This document shows, piece by piece, positions 1,125-1,394 of a stretch of 33,796 nucleotides of DNA. The notes below the pieces were generated by a model. That model was not told the origin of the DNA. It saw nothing but the letters and a program-made list of their open reading frames with translations, and ran no database searches. This stretch comes from Candidatus Eiseniibacteriota bacterium. GTDB lineage: Bacteria; Eisenbacteria; RBG-16-71-46. The stretch is from NCBI GenBank assembly GCA_023249845.1, contig JAHFBW010000005.1:1-33796 (forward strand). The letters are read 5' to 3'. Positions within the stretch are counted from its first letter, which is position 1; the number at the start of each line of letters is the position of its first letter. The translations under genes were made by a program, and so were the position numbers.

Positions 1125-1153
1125 TTGACACCCCGCGTGGACGGGCAGACAAT
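1125..1153 (+). promoter_or_regulatory. Sigma70-like promoter: TTGACA (1125-1130), 17-bp spacer, GACAAT (1148-1153)
   Basis: Perfect -35 hexamer, optimal 17-bp spacing, 4/6 match to TATAAT; lies in a non-coding interval. Confidence 0.55.
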
Positions 1154-1159
1154 TCGCGC

Positions 1160-1394
1160 AGCAGCTGGGCAGAAAGACCTCCTTGGCAGGGAGCTTTCAC
1201 ACCCGAACCGGGGCCTCGTTCGCTGCACGGGGCCTGTCTCGAGACGGACGCGCGAGTTTCACGAGCGAGGTGAGTCGCGCCATGTCAAGAGGCCGCGCGG
1301 TAAGGGAGCTGCGAGGACTCCGCTTCACTGGCCCTGGGTGAAACCCTCGCGGAGTCGGTAGGGGCCCCCCCTCTACTTGTGGCGTCAGCGCCAC
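1160..1394 (+). ncRNA. Candidate structured RNA (independent ncRNA or long 5' leader of the POT transporter)
   Basis: Noncoding stretch after the promoter with several complementary arms: 1214-1222/1262-1270 (9 bp with one GU), 1234-1238/1243-1247 with TCGA loop, 1316-1323/1349-1356 (GACTCCGC/GCGGAGTC), 1358-1364/1370-1376, 1379-1384/1389-1394 (GTGGCG/CGCCAC). Read by eye, not folded. Confidence 0.4.

Follow-up and report, generated by a model that had tools for sequence, protein, structure and literature searches.

In the Xanthomonas sRNA sX13, C-rich loops pair with G-rich motifs near the translation starts of mRNAs and thereby repress them (PMC3771888). Like sX13, RNAIII of Staphylococcus aureus and the UCCC-motif RNAs are standalone molecules, in which several hairpins present unpaired C-rich loops. 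6S RNA (Rfam RF00013) is about 200 nt long and is encoded by a standalone gene, present in one copy and preceded by a sigma-70-type promoter. Comparative genomics has also yielded orphan structured RNA classes, intergenic in location and recognised by covariation (PMC2864571). The element described here resembles all of these in the features listed. It is about twice as long as sX13 and contains an additional closed, multibranched 5' domain; unlike the orphan classes, it matches none of the 4227 families of Rfam 15 and, as far as detected, is confined to one family of Eisenbacteria.

The element occupies positions 1161 to about 1376 of the forward strand of a 33,796 nucleotide stretch of DNA from a Candidatus Eiseniibacteriota bacterium (contig JAHFBW010000005.1), referred to in its entirety as the window. 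It is probably a standalone gene for a trans-acting noncoding RNA, provided with its own sigma-70-type promoter; that it represents a real noncoding RNA gene, about 215 nt long, of one family of the uncultured phylum Candidatus Eisenbacteria is very likely. The evidence comes from sequence comparison, and consists of the conserved fold and promoter, the non-coding character, the presence in single copy, the fixed place after one gene and the independence from the gene downstream. We infer from it that the RNA is discretely transcribed and acts in trans.

When 59 related genomes were searched at the DNA level, full or partial matches to the element turned up in 17 other genomes, belonging to the same GTDB family, and the conserved block was seen to open at 1161. 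The 18 copies can be aligned from the sequence GCAGCY, at the predicted 5' end, to a C-rich hairpin ending at about 1376, and conservation falls off on both sides. A covariance model built on the P1 domain (see below) detected exactly one copy in 18 of the 20 genomes of the family, with E values between 4e-17 and 3e-26. It gave no hit among 27 further members of the phylum or in the remainder of the 385 genomes, the larger runs having used strict prefilters, by which distant relatives could be missed. A single pattern match outside Eisenbacteria, in Arthrobacter, was judged to be due to chance. Both family genomes negative for the RNA are broken in the flank: in G012 (L113 2215-3359, contig G012:C154) GC-rich sequence turns abruptly AT-rich just past the upstream gene, and the contig is probably chimeric; in G010 the sequence past the same gene has the look of an insertion unrelated to the locus. 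The 3' end of the RNA is uncertain, since no intrinsic terminator could be located. Just 3' of the RNA, at 1380-1395, the window contains a GC-rich inverted repeat, GTGGCGTCAGCGCCAC, found in altered form in the closest relative and absent from the other copies.

An earlier note, based on the window alone, had proposed a new structured RNA under the control of a promoter of its own, and both parts of the proposal are borne out by the homologues, through covariation, a conserved -35 box and the lack of Rfam matches. The promoter-like pair is formed by TTGACA (1125-1130) and GACAAT (1148-1153), on the forward strand and separated by a 17 nt spacer; none of 50 shuffled sequences contained such a pair. 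In all 18 homologues TTGAC is located 35-37 nt before the first base of P1, and the relatives carry, at about -12 to -7, a weaker -10 element resembling CACA.ACT, which ends about 7 nt before the same base. Given these distances, the predicted start of transcription coincides with the base of P1. The same note had seen no credible coding sequence here, and this holds for the conserved block: no reading frame is open throughout all copies, and the spacings between conserved blocks vary by 1-2 nt rather than in threes, on which grounds a coding gene or small ORF was rejected.

The fold supported by the alignment consists of a helix, P1, enclosing the hairpin P2 and a branch, P5, which carries P3 and P4; P6 and a terminal hairpin with a C-rich loop, P7, follow. 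The 5' strand of P1, GCAGCT (1161-1166), pairs with AGCTGC (1307-1312); all cells are paired (100%), three of six pairs show double changes, and the variants GCAGCT/AGCTGC, GCAGTC/GACTGC and GCGGCT/AGTCGC are found. Hairpin P2 (1167-1204), closed by the conserved loop TTGGCAG, is formed by the pairs 1167-1169/1202-1204, 1172-1176/1194-1198 and 1179-1182/1190-1193, paired in 94-98% of cells, and its GAAAG/CTTTC segment covaries to GGGAG/CTCCC and others. P5 joins ACCG (1207-1210) to CGGT (1298-1301), with 92% of cells paired and double changes. P3 (1211-1235) is a hairpin of nine pairs, all nine with double changes, and within its loop, TCGCTGC, the bases CGCTGC are invariant in all 18 copies. 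The P4 arm (1236-1293), with loop GAGCGAG, comprises 1236-1239/1290-1293, 1252-1255/1275-1278 and 1259-1262/1270-1273; 85-92% of its cells are paired, and double changes occur in 9 of 11 pairs. P6 (1316-1355), which has a conserved apical GCCC loop and a C-rich bulge (CCCTC) on the 3' side, is paired in 85-89% of cells (double changes in 11 of 14 pairs), and P7 (1359-1375), formed by TAGGGG and CCTCTA around a CCCCC loop, in 82% (double changes in three of six pairs). All these helices lie on the forward strand.

Over the 18 homologues, the full model, P7 included, has 62 pairs, with 91.3% of cells paired and 41 pairs showing double changes, versus 21.6 in shuffled alignments; in the 5' domain 93.8% of cells are paired and 21 of 36 pairs show double changes, versus 9.3. 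Controls in which the model was slid along the alignment all scored far lower, but they favour the model because the structure was partly read from the same sequences used to test it. The double-change counts are stronger evidence, together with the result of RNAalifold, which, when run unaided on the full-length alignment, returned the same architecture, with 58 pairs, 38 of them with compensatory changes. A structure-free ranking of covarying column pairs, noisy at 18 sequences, placed a P1 pair (columns 6-156) first and several pairs from P3, P4 and P6 among the other high ranks. A contact between the GGG preceding the 3' strand of P1 (1304-1306) and the C-rich loop of P7 is possible but unsupported; this candidate pseudoknot was noticed post hoc, on two variants only (Fisher p ~0.02).

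The fold differs from the long-range rod of about 180 nt proposed earlier. The complementary arms named for the rod do exist in the window sequence, the first of them with mismatches, but across the 18 aligned copies the 21 rod pairs hold in 67.6% of cells, compared with 66.7% after shuffling, and their covariation is ordinary. Alignment of the relatives brought out strong covariation at 1161-1376, in a fold other than the rod. Taken singly, the sequence folds with unremarkable energy (z -1.36 and -0.83), and this result by itself would not have decided the matter.

As to the mode of action, the multibranched 5' domain (P1-P5) may serve as a rigid scaffold, in which the conserved loops UUGGCAG, CGCUGC and GAGCGAG would either stabilise the fold or serve to contact a partner. 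The unpaired C-rich stretches of the 3' domain, i.e. the GCCC loop and CCCUC bulge of P6 and the C-rich loop of P7, would then pair with the G-rich ribosome-binding regions of mRNAs. Such an antisense step between C-rich loops and G-rich translation-start regions, proposed by analogy, is tentative, and we give it distinctly less than an even chance. The P6 loop reads GCCC, and the P6 bulge and P7 loop are C-rich, in nearly all of the 18 copies, in genomes which are themselves GC-rich. Conservation is strongest among the bases of the 5' domain, a distribution equally compatible with protein binding; such a role, or a housekeeping one, is given about the same probability as the antisense step.

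The best-placed alternative retains the standalone RNA gene and dispenses with antisense pairing, the RNA working as a protein-bound scaffold within a ribonucleoprotein; it is just as tentative as the pairing model. Conservation does not peak in a single-stranded seed but in loops that are closed off within the 5' domain, where CGCUGC is invariant and GAGCGAG almost invariant, and such loops hint at a scaffold or at a site for protein; the neighbouring protein, however, looks secreted and is no obvious RNA binder.

An origin from the mRNA of the upstream gene, either as a 3' UTR element or as an RNA matured from the 3' end, is unlikely. It would agree with the arrangement of the locus: the upstream gene, whose end occupies 3-1058 of the forward strand, always adjoins the RNA, its stop codon lying about 100 nt before it in every RNA locus, and both are confined to the same family, the gene being present in all 20 genomes and, at an E value of 1e-8, in no other member of the phylum. 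The -35 box at a fixed distance in 18 of 18 copies, with the conserved block starting right after, points instead to an independent start. The part of the upstream protein encoded in the window has no Pfam match; its full-length relatives contain two jelly-roll-like repeats and, judging from their N-termini, look secreted. A second piece of this protein, 60 residues long and 98% identical, is found in the same assembly (G000:C171:4779-4958), perhaps at an overlapping contig end.

The gene downstream in the window, at 1540-2850 of the forward strand, encodes a POT/PTR2 transporter (Pfam PF00854), and the earlier note had considered a riboswitch-like leader of this gene. A closed, aptamer-like multibranched domain followed by two hairpins would suit a riboswitch or attenuator, and in the window the RNA lies on the strand of the transporter gene. 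The POT gene, however, follows in only three of the 17 loci with downstream sequence, namely those of the window's genus; among the 18 loci, nine have a convergent CorA gene on the opposite strand, five an ABC gene, which starts some 600-800 nt further downstream, and one reaches the contig end. Since the downstream gene varies, the RNA is not the leader of one gene, and no set of genes on its strand constantly follows it, as would be the case for a cis leader; we regard a cis-acting leader of the downstream gene as very unlikely. Only in the window's genus, with its three genomes, does the POT gene separate the RNA from CorA, and it therefore appears to have been inserted recently into an otherwise older gene order.

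Comparison with Rfam 15 gave no match at gathering score over the window and, at 900-1700, none with E up to 10. tmRNA, RNase P RNA and SRP RNA were each found above cut-off elsewhere in the window's genome, which rules out these identities. A divergent or replacement 6S RNA, sequestering RNA polymerase, is highly improbable. It would fit the similar length, the single copy and the own promoter, as well as the absence of Rfam 6S hits (E up to 5) from the window's genus (G000, G001, G002). These points are outweighed by a multibranched fold, with no conserved rod, in place of the long, centrally bulged rod of 6S RNA, by the lack of RF00013 matches at gathering score in nine loci, as in the window, and by the separate Rfam 6S gene that 16 of the 20 family genomes possess, in 14 cases alongside this RNA. 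G019 likewise gave no 6S hit with E up to 5; all four assemblies are incomplete, and the absence may reflect this or a real loss. The 6S-like character suggested in the earlier note is thus not retained.

The standalone gene remains the preferred reading, and the RNA is a new family of the general kind of standalone bacterial structured RNAs; without a function, no categorical newness is claimed for it. A bolder view, to which we give somewhat less than an even chance, would see in it a new class of lineage-defining structured RNA, multibranched, protein-bound or ligand-sensing, acting in trans and maintained as a single copy in each genome across one Eisenbacteria family. A literature search found no description of this RNA, nor any described small RNAs for the phylum Eisenbacteria. 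To this phylum the present data add a strongly covarying RNA family, for which the promoter position can be predicted and the boundary is clear. Its family-wide conservation, at one copy per genome and always in the same location, speaks for a lasting function, and the alignment and model make the RNA directly testable in metatranscriptomes.
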